A stretch of DNA of 26,217 nt, taken from a virus. The stretch is from positions 1 through 26,217 of IMG/VR virus record IMGVR_UViG_3300020457_000083, one strand, 5' to 3'. Position numbers and translations under genes: made by a program. Positions 6,772 through 26,217 of this stretch are shown piece after piece. Each line of letters opens with the position of its first letter. The stretch's first letter is position 1. A model generated the notes under the pieces. The model did not search any database. It saw only the letters and a list, made by a program, of their open reading frames with translations, and was not told the DNA's origin.

Positions 6772-9522
6772 ATGAAAAAAAGTTATTCACCAGGAGTAAT
6801 ACAGCAAAAATCTAGTAGTCTTCATGACACTAAAGAAAATATTAGAATTGAGCAACTCATTCCTTCTGAAATATTAGAGGACCAAGGTCAATTACAAAAA
6901 TTTTTAGAAGCATATTATACGTTCATGAATATGGACGAATTTATATACCAAGAAAATGAAACCTTTACAGGAGTTGTATTAGAAGAAAAGGTTACATTTC
7001 GTATACCTGACCCAGAAAATAAAAATAATAAATTCTTTACAGATGAAACTGGTGCAGACTCTAGTTTAGTTGTTACATCTCCTGCGGGGGTTGATACCAC
7101 TATTTCACTTGATGCTATTAATGTTGCAATTACAAATGGTAACGAATTACCAGGTACTCTTGCGAACTTAACATCGGAAGTCGGTAAAACATTTACAGTA
7201 TCCGGTTTAAGTTCAAGTAATAATTTTACGGCCAAATTAATTACACCAGTTAAAAATTGGGTAGGTCCTGGGCCTTCTTTTGTTATGAATACAATTGAAG
7301 AGGCAATGAATATAGATGAAAATGCTTCTAATTATTTAGAGCTAATGCAAAAAGAAATTGCAGCAGCAATACCTAGAAATGTTACTGTAAATAAAAGAAC
7401 ACTTTATAAACAAATATTAGATTTTTACAAACTGCGTGGTAGTTCAGATAGTATAGAAATATTTTTCCAAATATTATTTAATGATGATGTAGAAGTTGCA
7501 TTTCCATTTGATGAAACACTTATACCATCAAGTGGTAATTGGTCACAGCCACCAGCTGTTACATCAGTTGTAAATGGTGCTGTTTCTAATTCTACAGCTA
7601 TCACAGTACAAACTGCAGATGTAAATATAAAATTAGGTTCCGTCTTTATTGGTGGAACAGTAAAAAGAGTAGATAATGTAACTGTCGCTGCAGTAAACGG
7701 CACATCTGTTACTCTTGATACTGCAGTATCCTTATCAAATGGTGCATCTATTACCTTTGAGCCTAGAGGAACATACCTTGACAACAAAGGGTTTTTGAGT
7801 TATAATATTAAAATACAGGATAGTTTAAGGTTTCAAAAATTTAGTTATTTAATTAAAACTGGTAAAAATTTATCAGATTGGGAAGGTGTCTTTGATAGAC
7901 TTGTTCACCCTGCTGGATTTATTTACTTTGCAGAAATATTACTGTTCTTACAATTAACAGATAATGTATTAACTGCAGCAAAAAACAAAGCATCGTTACC
8001 TGGTACACAACCAGGAGTTATAGGTGTTGAAGATATTCCATTACTTGTTGAAATGTTTGCTTCTGAGTTTCTACCAGGGGTTGAGGCCAAGATTGCAAAA
8101 AATGGATTACTCTCTATTGATTTAAAAGATGGTATTATAAATGTTATTAATATGACAAATGGTGGTAGTGGTTATACAAGCGTACCAACAATAACAACAG
8201 CTGATGGTGCAGCTGCATCGGGATTTACCGCGGCATCTCTTACACCTGTATTAACGGCCGGTTCAGTCAGTTCGGTTACCATTGTAAATGGTGGTAAGGA
8301 TTATGGTATACCACAGGTTACTTTTGCAGCACCAGCCGATATTACTTTTAACGGAAGTAGTTCAAGTATAGTAAATGTTGGAAATAATACCATTCAATTA
8401 ACAGGTGCTCAACAGGCAGCATTTCCTGTAGGTGCAACACTTACATATTCAACAACAGGTGGTGCAATTGGAGGATTAACTTCTGGAGCTCAATTTAGAG
8501 TACACACATCTGGTTCCAATTTAATTAAATTAAAACCTCTTGCTAATCAAGCAAATCCAGAAGTAGAAATTAATATTACCAGTGTAGGAACCGGCACAAC
8601 TCATAAATTTACTGGTGTTACGGCCACGGCCACAGCAACTTCTTTAAATGGTGCATTAGAAAAAATAACTATATCAGATGTAGGTTTTGGCTATGCGGCA
8701 AATGCAACATTAAGTGTATCATTTAATGGTCAAGGTTCTGGTTCAACACAAGATCCTGTTGCAACAATAGGTACAACTGCAGATGGTATACTCGATGTGG
8801 ATAATATTAATATTACAGGAGAAGGTTTTGGATTTGACCAATTATTTGGTTCCGTTGGAACTCCTGCTGTAGCTATAGGTAAAGTTGCAGCTGTTACATT
8901 TAATGGTCGTGCAAATAAACAATATAAAACTGCACCAGTTATTGTATTTCCAGAACCACAATCAAAAGATTCGCAAGGTAATTTATTAGTTAGTAATGTT
9001 ACTGCTGCAGCAGAATTTACAATTCAGGCAGAAGATGATTTATCTGACCCAAATAATCAGAAATATAAGGGCGAAATAACAGGGGTAAATATAACTAATG
9101 CAGGTAACGGATATATTGATGACCCTAAAGTCACAATAAGTAGTTCTGTACAAAATGAGGAAAGAGTTGCTGAAATGTTACATACCAGACCGGTAGAATG
9201 TAACCATGTAACTCTTGCAGATGGAGAACAATTAATTACAACTCAAATAAATCCAAGACAAGCGACTGGTTCAATTATGACTAGCACTGGAACAGCAGTT
9301 AAATTTTTACCAGAACATACAGTAAATATTGTAAATGCAAGTTATGGAATTATAGAAAATAATGGGTATAGACAGAGGAGAGGTCCTAGTAATTTCTTTA
9401 ATACACCTAGGCTTTTTAACAGTAATCAAACAATTGAATTTTTAGGTTCAAATCAAATACAAAACCTTGATTCAACTGATATAAATAAGTATAACACAAA
9501 CAGTTTTGTGGATATTGAATAG
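6772..9522 (+). CDS. Large baseplate protein in the gp7 position
   Basis: 916 residues; T4 gp7 is 1032. It lies between gp6 and gp8, exactly where gp7 lies in T4, and is probably a wedge protein, but similarity to T4 gp7 is not something I can see directly. The conserved-looking core is split: EQLIPSEILEDQGQLQKFLEAYY (near residue 25), IPRNVTVNKRTLYKQILDFYKLRGSSDSIEIFFQILF (about 200-236), and GTYLDNKGFLSYNIKIQDS, FQKFSYLIKTG, LVHPAGFIYFAEILLFL (about 338-400). Between and after these are beta-rich insertions: a module at about 260-335, Gly/Tyr repeats of the form NGGSGYTSVPTI (from about 457), and an IGGLTSGAQFRV module (about 560-575). A late promoter box for the next gene lies inside its last codons. 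No clear Shine-Dalgarno sequence precedes the ATG; the gp6 stop is one base upstream. Confidence 0.65.
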   Translation: MKKSYSPGVIQQKSSSLHDTKENIRIEQLIPSEILEDQGQLQKFLEAYYTFMNMDEFIYQENETFTGVVLEEKVTFRIPDPENKNNKFFTDETGADSSLVVTSPAGVDTTISLDAINVAITNGNELPGTLANLTSEVGKTFTVSGLSSSNNFTAKLITPVKNWVGPGPSFVMNTIEEAMNIDENASNYLELMQKEIAAAIPRNVTVNKRTLYKQILDFYKLRGSSDSIEIFFQILFNDDVEVAFPFDETLIPSSGNWSQPPAVTSVVNGAVSNSTAITVQTADVNIKLGSVFIGGTVKRVDNVTVAAVNGTSVTLDTAVSLSNGASITFEPRGTYLDNKGFLSYNIKIQDSLRFQKFSYLIKTGKNLSDWEGVFDRLVHPAGFIYFAEILLFLQLTDNVLTAAKNKASLPGTQPGVIGVEDIPLLVEMFASEFLPGVEAKIAKNGLLSIDLKDGIINVINMTNGGSGYTSVPTITTADGAAASGFTAASLTPVLTAGSVSSVTIVNGGKDYGIPQVTFAAPADITFNGSSSSIVNVGNNTIQLTGAQQAAFPVGATLTYSTTGGAIGGLTSGAQFRVHTSGSNLIKLKPLANQANPEVEINITSVGTGTTHKFTGVTATATATSLNGALEKITISDVGFGYAANATLSVSFNGQGSGSTQDPVATIGTTADGILDVDNINITGEGFGFDQLFGSVGTPAVAIGKVAAVTFNGRANKQYKTAPVIVFPEPQSKDSQGNLLVSNVTAAAEFTIQAEDDLSDPNNQKYKGEITGVNITNAGNGYIDDPKVTISSSVQNEERVAEMLHTRPVECNHVTLADGEQLITTQINPRQATGSIMTSTGTAVKFLPEHTVNIVNASYGIIENNGYRQRRGPSNFFNTPRLFNSNQTIEFLGSNQIQNLDSTDINKYNTNSFVDIE
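9480..9487 (+). promoter_or_regulatory. T4-type late promoter box TATAAATA upstream of gp8
   Basis: Perfect box inside the last codons of the 916-residue gene (it spans Asp-Ile-Asn-Lys). The expected start near 9493 gives a leader of about 40 bases to the gp8-like ATG at 9535, containing a strong ribosome binding site (AGAAGGGA). Because an 8-base AT motif occurs by chance several times in DNA this AT-rich, its placement is the main support. Confidence 0.5.
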
Positions 9523-22415: not shown

Positions 22416-22487
22416 ATAATAACTGTTATATAACAGATTAAAATTTTATAAACCCTATATAGGGATTGAACAAGATAGGAGCCAAAA
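22416..22487 (+). promoter_or_regulatory. 72-base gap with three perfect palindromes
   Basis: Largest gap in the rightward cluster. It contains CTGTTATATAACAG (22423-22436), TAAAATTTTA (22439-22448) and CCCTATATAGGG (22453-22464), all perfectly self-complementary. The first and third could form hairpins with an ATAT loop; neither is followed by a clean T-run. A degenerate late-promoter-like TATAAACC (22447-22454 region) overlaps the last one. AGGAG at 22477-22481 is the ribosome binding site of the next gene. Role unknown: weak terminator, operator or RNA structure are all possible. Confidence 0.5.
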
Positions 22488-25400
22488 TTGGCAAGACAAA
22501 CTAATATTAAATTAAGGCGTTCAGCTACGGCTGGAGCTATTCCAACTACAAGTAATTTAGATCTAGGTGAGCTAGCGCTCAATACCTACGACGGTAAACT
22601 CTATATGAAAACTACCGAGGGTAGTTTGGATAGTGTTATTCAAGTCGGCTCCTCAACAGATTCATATTTTAAAATTCGTAAAAGTTTAACCTTATCATTC
22701 GAAGTAAAGGTTGTAGCCAAAACTGCAGACCACAAATATTATAATCAGGGTTCTAGTTTAGGTTATCATATTGACGGTATAGAATCACCACACTTAATGT
22801 TGGTGCCTGGAAATACCTATAAGTTTGACCAATCAGACAGTTCAAACTCAGGCCATCCTTTAAGATTTTATTACGAAGCAGATAAAACTACTGCTTATAC
22901 TACAGGCGTAACAACAAGCGGAACTCCTGGTTCTTCAGGCGCATATACACAAATTGTACCAACTGGTGATACACCAATGTGTCTATATTACCAATGTTCA
23001 GCTCATGGATATATGGGTAATAAAGCCAGTTTTCTAACTCGTAATTTAACAGGATTTGATACCGGGGATTTAACTGAAGGAAGTAATTTATATTTTACAA
23101 ATGCTAGAGTAGATGCAAGATTAGAGGCCACTGACCATACAATAGATGGTAACGGTTCATCGGGCGGTGTTACAATATCAGATGGTAATGTACAAATTAA
23201 AACAGGAACCGGTTCAGTTGCTTCAGTAGATTTTTATTGTGAATCAAATAATGCTCACAGAGTCAGGTTAAAAGCTCCAGCACATTCAAACTTTAGTGGC
23301 AACCCTGATGTAATATTACCTAATTCATCTGGTACATTAGCACTATTAAGTGATATTAGTGTAACAGATGCTGGCGGCGATGGTTCTTTATCATATAATA
23401 ATAGCACAGGTGTAATTACATACACAGGTCCAAGTGCTGCAGAAGTAAGAGCTCATTTCTCTGCAGGTACTGGTGTAGCAATATCTAGTGGACAAATATC
23501 TATCGGACAGGCAGTTGCAACATCTTCAAATGTTACTTTTAATAATGTTACAGTAGATGGAACATTAACATCAGATGATATAACATCTACAAATATTAGT
23601 GTTGCAGGAAATGCTACAATCACAGGAAATTTAACAGTAAGTGGAACGACTACTACGGTTAATAGTTCTACATTAGATGTTGCAGATAAAAATATAACAA
23701 TTAATAAAGGTTCAGGAGATACATCTGGAACAGCAGATGGTGCTGGTATTACAATACAAGATGCAGTAAGTGCTTCAACAGACGCAACATTACTTTGGGA
23801 CGCAACAAACGATAGGTTTGATTTCTCTCACCCAGTTACAATAGTTAATAATGATACAGATGATACTTTATTATTAACATCAACTGAAGCTTCAAGCACA
23901 GCAGCTCCAGTATTAACATTAAAAAGAAATTCAGGTTCACCGGCTGATGCAGATTATTTAGGACAAGTTAAGTTTAAAGGTGAAAACGATGCTGACCAAG
24001 AAGTTGTATTTGCAAAAGTTACAGGTAAAATACAAGATGCTTCTGATGGTTCAGAAGATGGTATATTAGAATTTGCAAATATAAAAGCTGGTTCACAAAC
24101 AATTACAGCAAGATTAAGGTCTGATTCATTTCAACTTTTAAATAATACAAACCTAATAGTTAGAGGTTTAACTTACCCGACAAGTGACGGTTCAAATGGA
24201 CAAGCATTAGTAACCGATGGTTCTGGTAATTTATCATTCAGTAGTATATCTGCTGGTGGTAATGCTTTTGGTACAATTGCAGTATCAGGACAAAGTGATG
24301 TTGTTGCAGACTCTAATAGTGATACACTTACATTAGTTGCTGGTTCAAATATAACACTTACAACTAATGCTGGTGGCGACTCTGTAACAATTGCTGCTAG
24401 TGGTGGTGGTTCTTCAATTACAGTACAAGATGAAGGCAGTGCCTTATCTACTGCATTGGGTACATTAAATTTTGTAGGTGCTGGAGTTACAGCAAGTGGT
24501 ACTGGTGCTACAAAAACAATTACAATTCCAGGCACGGGTACAGTAAGTGAAGCATTTAAAACTATTGCAGTTTCAGGCTCATCAGATATAGTTGCTGATT
24601 CAGCTACAGATACACTAACACTTGTAGCTGGTAGTAATATGACTATCACACAAAATGCAAGTAGTGATACAATTACTTTTGCATCTTCAGGCGGTAGTAG
24701 TACATCTGCTGCAGATATAAGAAAGAAATTTGTTTATACAACATCAGGAAGTACAACTGCTTTCAGTGGCTCAGATGATAATTCACAAACACTTAGTTAT
24801 ACAACAGGAGCTGTTGATGTATTCCTAAATGGTGTATTACAAAAATTAACAACTGACTATGCTGAAACAAATAGTTCTACAATTACTTTTGTAAATGCTA
24901 TTCCTAGTGGAAACGTTGTAGAAATAGTTGCGTATTATAGAACAATAGGAACAGGTAATTCTGTCGTTGACCAATTTACAGGTAATGGTTCAACAACGGC
25001 ATTCACTGTTACAACTGCCCCGGCAGATGAAAAGAATTTAATGGTTTACATTGATGGTGTGTATCAACAGAAAACTGATTATACTGTAAGTGGTACAACA
25101 TTAACATTTGATACTGCACCGGCAAGTGGTGCAACGATAGAAACTGTTTCCATGGTTGGTGCGATTACAACACAAGGAGCATTAACATTAACAGGTGCAC
25201 TTACCGGTACATCTGGTGATTTTTCTAGTGATTTTAGTATAGCAGGTAATTTATTACTAGACGGAGATAATAAAGAATTAAGATTCTATGAAGGTTCTAA
25301 CTTTGTAGGATTTGAGGCCCCTGCATTATCTGGTGACCAAATATGGGTATTACCAGACGCGGATGGTTCGAGTGGCCATGCATTAAAAACTGATGGTTCC

Positions 25401-26217
25401 GGTAATTTAAGCTGGGGAACAGCAGGTGGTAATGCATTTGATAAAGTCGCAGTAAGTGGACAATCAAATATAGTTGCTGACTCTACTACTGACACATTAA
25501 CTTTTGCCGCTGGTACAGGTATCACATTAACAACTACACCAGGAACAGATACACTTACAATTACAAACTCAGCAACTGGTGCAAATGCATTTGGAACAAT
25601 TGCAGTTAGTGGCCAAACAAGCGTGGCGGCCGACTCAACAGGAGATACATTAACTTTAGAAGCTGGTGCAGGTATTACACTAACAACAGATGCTTCTACT
25701 GATAAAGTTACAATAGCTGGTGGAAGTGGTTCCGTATTTACTACTGATTTATTTACTGCATCAGGTTCTGGTTCAGCATTACTATCATATACATTATCAA
25801 CAACACCTAGCTCAGAAAATGAATTAATTTGTTTTATTGAGGGTGTTTATCAGAATAAAAATTCATATAGTTTAAGTGGAACAACATTAACATTTGATTC
25901 TGGTATAGTTTCAGGCCAAGAGATTGTGGTTCATCATGTTGGTGCAGGAGTAGTAGGTGTATCTCCAACTATTGATACATTTACAGGAGATGGCTCAACA
26001 ACAGGTTATACTTTATCTTTAGCTCCACCAAATGAAAATTACTTATCAGTATTTTGGGACGGTGTGTATCAACATCATAGCGAATATTCAGTTAGTGGTA
26101 CAACACTAACATTTACAGCAGCGGCACCAAATTCAACAGCAATAGAAGTTCATATACCTTCAGTAAATGGAATAGGAACACCAAGTGATGGAACAGTCAC
26201 ACCAGCTAAATTAAGTA
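22488..26217 (+). CDS. Giant tail fibre with cupredoxin-like domain, TTG start (cut by window edge)
   Basis: Open from a TTG at 22488 to the window end, 1243 codons visible. The TTG is fixed by AGGAG at 22477-22481 (6-base spacing), by an in-frame TAG at 22476 just upstream, and by the fibre-type N-terminus ARQTNIKLRRSATAGAIPTT. After this (residues 1-60) comes a cupredoxin-like domain at about 67-182 with PGNTYKFDQSDSSNSGHPLR (about 106-125) and YYQCSAHGYMG, giving His123, Cys170, His173 and Met176. Then follow FTNARVDARLEA and the fibre module GNLTVSGTTTTVNSS (about 380-395). The rest is built from repeats: four copies of a 45-residue AVSGQ unit and four copies of a ~65-residue DGVYQ unit. 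The C-terminus is not seen. The protein is probably a host-binding fibre or baseplate-attached appendage. Confidence 0.85.
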   Translation, partial: MARQTNIKLRRSATAGAIPTTSNLDLGELALNTYDGKLYMKTTEGSLDSVIQVGSSTDSYFKIRKSLTLSFEVKVVAKTADHKYYNQGSSLGYHIDGIESPHLMLVPGNTYKFDQSDSSNSGHPLRFYYEADKTTAYTTGVTTSGTPGSSGAYTQIVPTGDTPMCLYYQCSAHGYMGNKASFLTRNLTGFDTGDLTEGSNLYFTNARVDARLEATDHTIDGNGSSGGVTISDGNVQIKTGTGSVASVDFYCESNNAHRVRLKAPAHSNFSGNPDVILPNSSGTLALLSDISVTDAGGDGSLSYNNSTGVITYTGPSAAEVRAHFSAGTGVAISSGQISIGQAVATSSNVTFNNVTVDGTLTSDDITSTNISVAGNATITGNLTVSGTTTTVNSSTLDVADKNITINKGSGDTSGTADGAGITIQDAVSASTDATLLWDATNDRFDFSHPVTIVNNDTDDTLLLTSTEASSTAAPVLTLKRNSGSPADADYLGQVKFKGENDADQEVVFAKVTGKIQDASDGSEDGILEFANIKAGSQTITARLRSDSFQLLNNTNLIVRGLTYPTSDGSNGQALVTDGSGNLSFSSISAGGNAFGTIAVSGQSDVVADSNSDTLTLVAGSNITLTTNAGGDSVTIAASGGGSSITVQDEGSALSTALGTLNFVGAGVTASGTGATKTITIPGTGTVSEAFKTIAVSGSSDIVADSATDTLTLVAGSNMTITQNASSDTITFASSGGSSTSAADIRKKFVYTTSGSTTAFSGSDDNSQTLSYTTGAVDVFLNGVLQKLTTDYAETNSSTITFVNAIPSGNVVEIVAYYRTIGTGNSVVDQFTGNGSTTAFTVTTAPADEKNLMVYIDGVYQQKTDYTVSGTTLTFDTAPASGATIETVSMVGAITTQGALTLTGALTGTSGDFSSDFSIAGNLLLDGDNKELRFYEGSNFVGFEAPALSGDQIWVLPDADGSSGHALKTDGSGNLSWGTAGGNAFDKVAVSGQSNIVADSTTDTLTFAAGTGITLTTTPGTDTLTITNSATGANAFGTIAVSGQTSVAADSTGDTLTLEAGAGITLTTDASTDKVTIAGGSGSVFTTDLFTASGSGSALLSYTLSTTPSSENELICFIEGVYQNKNSYSLSGTTLTFDSGIVSGQEIVVHHVGAGVVGVSPTIDTFTGDGSTTGYTLSLAPPNENYLSVFWDGVYQHHSEYSVSGTTLTFTAAAPNSTAIEVHIPSVNGIGTPSDGTVTPAKLS
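22686..23035 (+). other. Cupredoxin-like domain with complete type-1 copper ligand pattern
   Basis: Encodes residues about 67-182 of the TTG-start fibre. It opens with LTLSFEVKVVAKT, has YHIDGIESPHLMLVPGNTYK and FDQSDSSNSGHPLRF, a YTTGVTTSGTPGSSGAYTQI stretch, and ends LYYQCSAHGYMG. The ligand set would be His123 ... Cys170-x2-His173-x2-Met176. The Cys-x2-His-x2-Met loop has the same spacing as amicyanin (Cys-Thr-Pro-His-Pro-Phe-Met). Copper binding is inferred, not shown. Confidence 0.65.
24261..25718 (+). repeat. Four copies of a 45-residue fibre repeat
   Basis: Copies at 24261-24395, 24549-24683, 25431-25565 and 25584-25718. Consensus begins NAFGTIAVSGQSxIVADS and continues DTLTLxAGxxITLTTxAxxD. 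A more distant copy lies in the long fibre gene at about 19019-19156 (RNISVAGQSTIVADSN). The copies are spaced irregularly (288, 882 and 153 bases between starts). Confidence 0.8.
24726..26159 (+). repeat. Four copies of a ~65-residue DGVYQ fibre repeat
   Basis: Copies at 24726-24938, 24969-25154, 25746-25940 and 25974-26159. Shared pattern: FTGxGSTTAFT, then a strand ending in (D/E/N)GVYQ, then DYxxSGTTLTF, then xAPxSGxxIEV. The first copy is the most diverged (DVFLNGVLQKLTTDY). Each looks like a small beta-sandwich unit. The copies interleave with the 45-residue repeats, suggesting that the fibre grew by block duplication. Confidence 0.8.

Follow-up and report, generated by a model that had tools for sequence, protein, structure and literature searches.

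We analysed a virus record of 26 kb (26,217 nucleotides in full; hereafter the window) whose genes are of T4-like baseplate and fibre types, namely gp25-like, gp6-like, hub/lysozyme, wedge and S74-type fibre genes. Its gp6 is closest, with some 40% identity, to those of Methylophilales phage Melnitz and of two pelagiphages, Mosig and HTVC008M. The window ends within a tail fibre gene, which both its profile score and its location in the tail-fibre cluster place in PHROG 30742, and which carries the predicted cupredoxin domain described here. Its TTG start and the preceding AGGAG are both kept in relatives. The features are as follows, A2 being an alignment of 42 diverse members of the domain family.

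22477–22481, plus strand: AGGAG ribosome-binding site ahead of the TTG start, read from the sequence; GGAGCC..TTGGC is kept upstream in relatives
22488–26217, plus strand: tail fibre gene, TTG start, open to the window end, 1243 amino acids seen; PHROG 30742 (tail fiber), E = 2.5e-61
22488–22670, plus strand: N-terminal module, residues 1–61, resembling the N-terminal ends of distal subunits from T4-like long tail fibres
22683–23054, plus strand: predicted cupredoxin domain, about residues 66–189 (AlphaFold2 pLDDT 92.6; Foldseek matches in the PDB; A2 profile match at 22698–23054)
22854–22856, plus strand: codon of His123, putative first copper ligand, invariant in 69 relatives and in A2
22995–22997, plus strand: codon of Cys170, putative second copper ligand (thiolate), invariant in 69 relatives and in A2
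23004–23006, plus strand: codon of His173, putative third copper ligand, invariant in close relatives where covered and in A2
23013–23015, plus strand: codon of Met176, putative axial ligand, invariant in close relatives where covered and at least 90% conserved in A2, with Gln in one cellular copy

Directly before the gene, at 22447–22464, TATAAA precedes a perfect palindrome of 12 bases, CCCTATATAGGG; together they form a possible late promoter or operator. Residues 1–54 of the fibre share 42–44% identity with T4-like distal long-fibre subunits (tblastn, E 1e-3 to 1e-4). The cupredoxin domain follows just after this N-terminal attachment module and is not at the fibre tip; because the module is common to T4-like distal long-fibre subunits, the domain probably lies near the proximal joint.

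The initial annotation had proposed a cupredoxin-like domain at 22686–23035 on the basis of two motifs, SSNSGHPLRF and LYYQCSAHGYMG. Both were found in the fibre translation, and these bounds are compatible with those of the profile match (about 22698–23054). His123, Cys170, His173 and Met176 all lie at the positions it gave, their codons were located, and its C-x2-H-x2-M spacing, that of amicyanin, was confirmed in the fibre. The four residues follow the cupredoxin order and topology of His ... Cys-xn-His-xn-Met, and a profile search detected only this one copy in the window. Close relatives also share, without exception, a further His at residue 82 (22731–22733; position 23 of the domain). 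It was dropped as a candidate extra ligand, since it falls outside the most conserved columns of the wide family.

Following the initial annotation's proposal to check whether homologues vary the ligands, we compared 69 distinct close relatives on viral contigs, whose identity to the window copy, where determined, was 62–87%. All of them keep the first His and the Cys, and they keep the second His and the Met wherever covered, one relative ending before the second His. The codons varied synonymously, with CAT/CAC ratios of 47/22 and 61/7 at the His positions and a TGT/TGC ratio of 56/13 at the Cys. Because the ligands stay invariant in the 69 relatives while the His and Cys codons change synonymously, a chance motif was ruled out.

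The wide family was pooled from related-locus matches, tblastn matches in named phages and whole-record profile matches in 17 phages, and was reduced to 70 representatives mutually less than 70% identical. All four ligands are kept in 61 of these (59 in register and two with the Met one residue later), a count in which conservation appears inflated to the extent that the first relative sets were gathered by patterns partly including the Cys-His motif; that motif was not required in the whole-record profile searches or the tblastn sets. One representative, a SAR86 surface protein, has Gln for the Met, and the Cys/His/Met loop is degenerate in the remaining eight. At this level of divergence the four ligands take four of the seven top places in column conservation, and only five columns are invariant across the 42 members of A2 (Phe, His, Tyr, Cys and His), three of them ligands. 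The first His and C-x2-H-x2-M were also kept in ten of ten further phage copies, eight of which are C-termini of gp9/gp10-like proteins. A few copies have a longer His-Met spacing, as in plastocyanin. Far from varying freely, the ligands are thus invariant in close relatives and retained in most diverse ones.

The degenerate copies bear on a different reading, in which the domain is an ordinary Ig-like filler: the beta-sandwich would be what matters, the conserved His, Cys, His and Met would be structural or inherited, and the virion would hold no metal. Ig-like decorations are frequent in phage tails, and the cupredoxin fold is itself an Ig-like sandwich. Ligand-poor copies do occur in gp7 and in large cyanophage structural proteins, and with eight of 70 representatives degenerate in the loop, copper is therefore, as judged from sequence, not essential to every copy of the domain. 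These copies mostly adjoin intact ones within the same large proteins, and they tend to lose the loop ligands jointly. A Fisher test of this joint loss was given no weight, the sequences not being independent of one another and one copy (L198) keeping a Cys together with a more distant His. Such joint loss speaks against a mere filler, as do the rank of the four ligands within the seven top columns, the three ligands among five invariant A2 positions, and the resemblance of the Met-to-Gln exchange and the loop-length changes to known copper sites. Hence we consider the filler reading improbable. Intact and ligand-poor copies are found together in the large structural proteins of L236 (gp7 of P-HM2), L242 (wedge protein of MED4-213), L193, L198, L200 and L201.

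The fold was then predicted with AlphaFold2 for the 128-residue window domain, using an alignment of 52 relatives (A1). The model is a beta-sandwich with a mean pLDDT of 92.6. Its best PDB match by Foldseek was rusticyanin (E 1.5e-4), and nearly all other listed matches were multicopper oxidases or laccases, nitrite reductase and pseudoazurin, among them a pseudoazurin with an engineered amicyanin loop; SO1698, which is not described as a copper protein, ranked 22nd. The top matches are Greek-key beta-sandwich cupredoxins, with a probability of 1.00 and TM-scores of 0.43–0.50. A second model, of a diverse relative and built from A2, reached a pLDDT of 88.8 and matched rusticyanin, plastocyanin, nitrite reductase, AcoP, amicyanin and pseudoazurin, with TM-scores up to 0.60; over both models the scores are moderate, mostly 0.4–0.6. 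In each model the first His lies just ahead of a strand, the Cys is the last residue of its strand, and the second His and the Met occupy the loop leading to the last strand. Blue copper proteins place these residues in the same way. The fold search proposed in the initial annotation therefore returned the rusticyanin, pseudoazurin, nitrite reductase and laccase folds, not an unrelated one. A search of the PDB with the wide profile did not find a solved phage structure containing a cupredoxin domain. The model is also matched, with TM-scores of about 0.74 and 22–28% identity, by three BFVD entries (A0A481Z6J5, A0A481Z7Q7 and A0A481YY19); these small 'beta-sandwich' proteins, from giant viruses resembling Pithovirus and Marseillevirus, are possible cupredoxins.

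Sequence links to known cupredoxins run through intermediate copies. The window domain matched no Pfam or NCBIfam model, so that direct assignment was ruled out; as a single sequence it gave only noise against PDB sequences, and the close-relative profile gave only a short, weak alignment to plastocyanin. The window-family profile does align with copies bearing an HPF motif (hhalign 98.8%, E 9e-17), and these HPF-type copies align with cyanophage plastocyanins (85%, E 6e-6) with His, Cys and second His in register. A P-SSM2 copy scored 2.8e-4 against Cupredoxin_1, 1.9e-4 against rusticyanin (a weak match to model TIGR03095) and 2.8e-4 against amicyanin. Compared with the PDB, the wide profile found copper nitrite reductase (E 2.2e-4), with a multicopper oxidase and pseudoazurin ranking next. 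Membership of the cupredoxin superfamily is thus indicated by profiles indirectly, through relatives. Relatives fall below the curated cut-offs of PF00127 (Copper-bind) and PF13473 (Cupredoxin_1), this P-SSM2 copy just below them, and a relative reaches 21.2 bits against the 110.2 of the amicyanin equivalog TIGR02657. Taken together, sequence and model support the view that residues of about 66–185 of the fibre form a cupredoxin domain with a complete, amicyanin-spaced type-1 ligand set.

It is likely, in our estimate, that this site is occupied by copper. Apo type-1 sites accept Zn, Ni or Hg in vitro, and zinc or another metal could sit in the virion site instead. We regard this as very unlikely, as the ligand set and its spacing are the classic copper ones and thiolate/His/Met sites favour copper.

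The initial annotation was correct on the domain and its site and had underrated the spread of the module, which is no one-off and is common among marine T4-like phages. Its carriers include tail fibre proteins from Melnitz, Bellamy, Mosig, P-SSM2 and P-TIM68, gp7 of P-HM2 and its baseplate wedge counterpart in MED4-213, phage subtilase-like proteins and, in many cyanophages, a gp9/gp10-like wedge and fibre-connector protein of which it forms the C-terminus. The N-terminus of this connector matches T4 gp10, and the gp9/gp10-like query type matched 352 phage records. The connectors at L199:2056-3231 and in L277-L284, which join a T4 gp10-like N-terminus to a C-terminal cupredoxin, carry no annotation beyond baseplate wedge tail fiber connector. 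In L106, the cupredoxin domain is inserted in a subtilase-like phage protein (5494-7905), after which comes a haem-oxygenase-like ORF (7936-8469). Automatic cupredoxin labels for some of the carrier proteins may already exist in InterPro/CATH-type databases. No description of cupredoxin or copper domains in virions was found in the open-access literature searched, and we have here a known fold in a location for which that literature yielded no report.

The module also occurs in cellular proteins of surface type: a giant repeat protein of Prochlorococcus MIT 9201, a SAR86 repeat protein and a collagen-like protein of Bacteroidetes. In Prochlorococcus marinus MIT 9201 (L103:1665-10265) the domain is inserted within one of many near-identical repeats, which suggests exchange between phage and host surface proteins; a TolC-like gene (L103, 1-1662) adjoins the gene. 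In the SAR86 giant surface protein (L105:2445-2780) the axial Met is replaced by Gln (CQAHANQ), as in stellacyanin, where Gln takes the place of the axial Met.

This distribution bears on what the domain does. Since its carrier proteins are so varied, a general function as a folded, metal-locked knob is argued for over recognition of one receptor. We consider it likely that the domain is a cupredoxin serving mainly as a copper-stabilised knob, with adhesion as a likely further use in terminal copies. The domain would be made without copper in the host cytoplasm, and each chain would take up one copper, making three in a trimeric fibre, during lysis or from sea water. The metal would lock the Cys-His-Met loop onto the beta-sandwich, giving a rigid, protease-resistant knob beside the proximal end of the fibre. 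Its main role would then be stabilisation of an exposed accessory domain, and surface adhesion would be a likely further use where copies sit at the ends of virion proteins. Adhesion is left as a candidate role by the virion proteins that end in the module at their C-terminus (L099, L100, L101, L106, L107 and L199) and by the presence of the same domain in host surface proteins.

These same terminal copies and host giant surface proteins (L103, L105) favour a stronger reading, that adhesion is itself copper-dependent. In this 'copper Trojan horse', modelled on the hypothesis about iron in phage tail fibres, the copper-loaded domain would be recognised by a host copper-uptake receptor or by a thiol- or copper-rich surface component. 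Iron is bound by HxH motifs in T4 gp37, has been proposed in marine phage fibres and is linked to the use of siderophore receptors (PMC11705849). Against it, the window domain adjoins the N-terminal attachment module, away from the distal tip; the module is also present in gp7 and in subtilase-like proteins, which are unlikely receptors; and evidence for a receptor was looked for and not found. On balance we hold copper-dependent recognition to be unlikely.

A redox role can be weighed on the same distribution. Type-1 sites cycle between Cu(I) and Cu(II), and with its ligand set complete the domain might act as a redox-active or copper-sensing switch, in which reduction or loss of copper on cell contact would trigger a change in the fibre. 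Neither an electron partner nor a docking patch came to light, many unrelated virion proteins contain the module, and the same phages carry true plastocyanin genes apart from the domain (9 of the 21 phage records searched). Such a switch therefore appears extremely improbable.

If the site is loaded as the stabilised-knob reading supposes, phage particles in the ocean are copper proteins, with three coppers in each trimeric window fibre and more in cyanophages with several copies of the domain, which would bear on fibre stability, host attachment and how sea water holds copper. A broader proposal is that marine T4-like phages find and grip their hosts by copper-loaded fibre and baseplate domains, the hosts displaying the same domain on giant surface proteins, in a repertoire both shared and contested; we think this improbable, and if it were true, virions would also hold a share of the ocean's copper in particulate form. 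In any case, the analysis puts a name to a domain that hundreds of records at present list as 'tail fiber', 'hypothetical' or 'baseplate connector'.

In comparison with known systems, the window domain shares with amicyanin, pseudoazurin and plastocyanin the predicted fold, with the Cys at a strand end and His and Met in the next loop, and with amicyanin the spacing of His and Cys-x2-His-x2-Met. It differs from all three in lying inside a phage fibre without a signal peptide, in having HP for HN at the first ligand, and in its long loop from this ligand to the Cys. Rusticyanin, its best fold match in the PDB, spaces its Cys, His and Met more widely and carries electrons as a free protein of the periplasm. 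PHROG 30742 covers the same domain and is labelled only 'tail fiber', with no copper annotation. The plastocyanin PetE of cyanophages, an auxiliary metabolic gene product, is likewise a cupredoxin carried by marine phages; however, it is a stand-alone secreted electron carrier above the Pfam cut-off, whereas the fibre domain belongs to the virion and scores below it. The fibres of T4 (gp37) and Alteromonas phage R22Y also hold a metal site in a tail fibre, where iron occupies octahedral HxH sites (PMC11705849), in contrast to the predicted single-chain type-1 copper site of the window fibre; iron in these HxH sites is the closest precedent, though different in kind.
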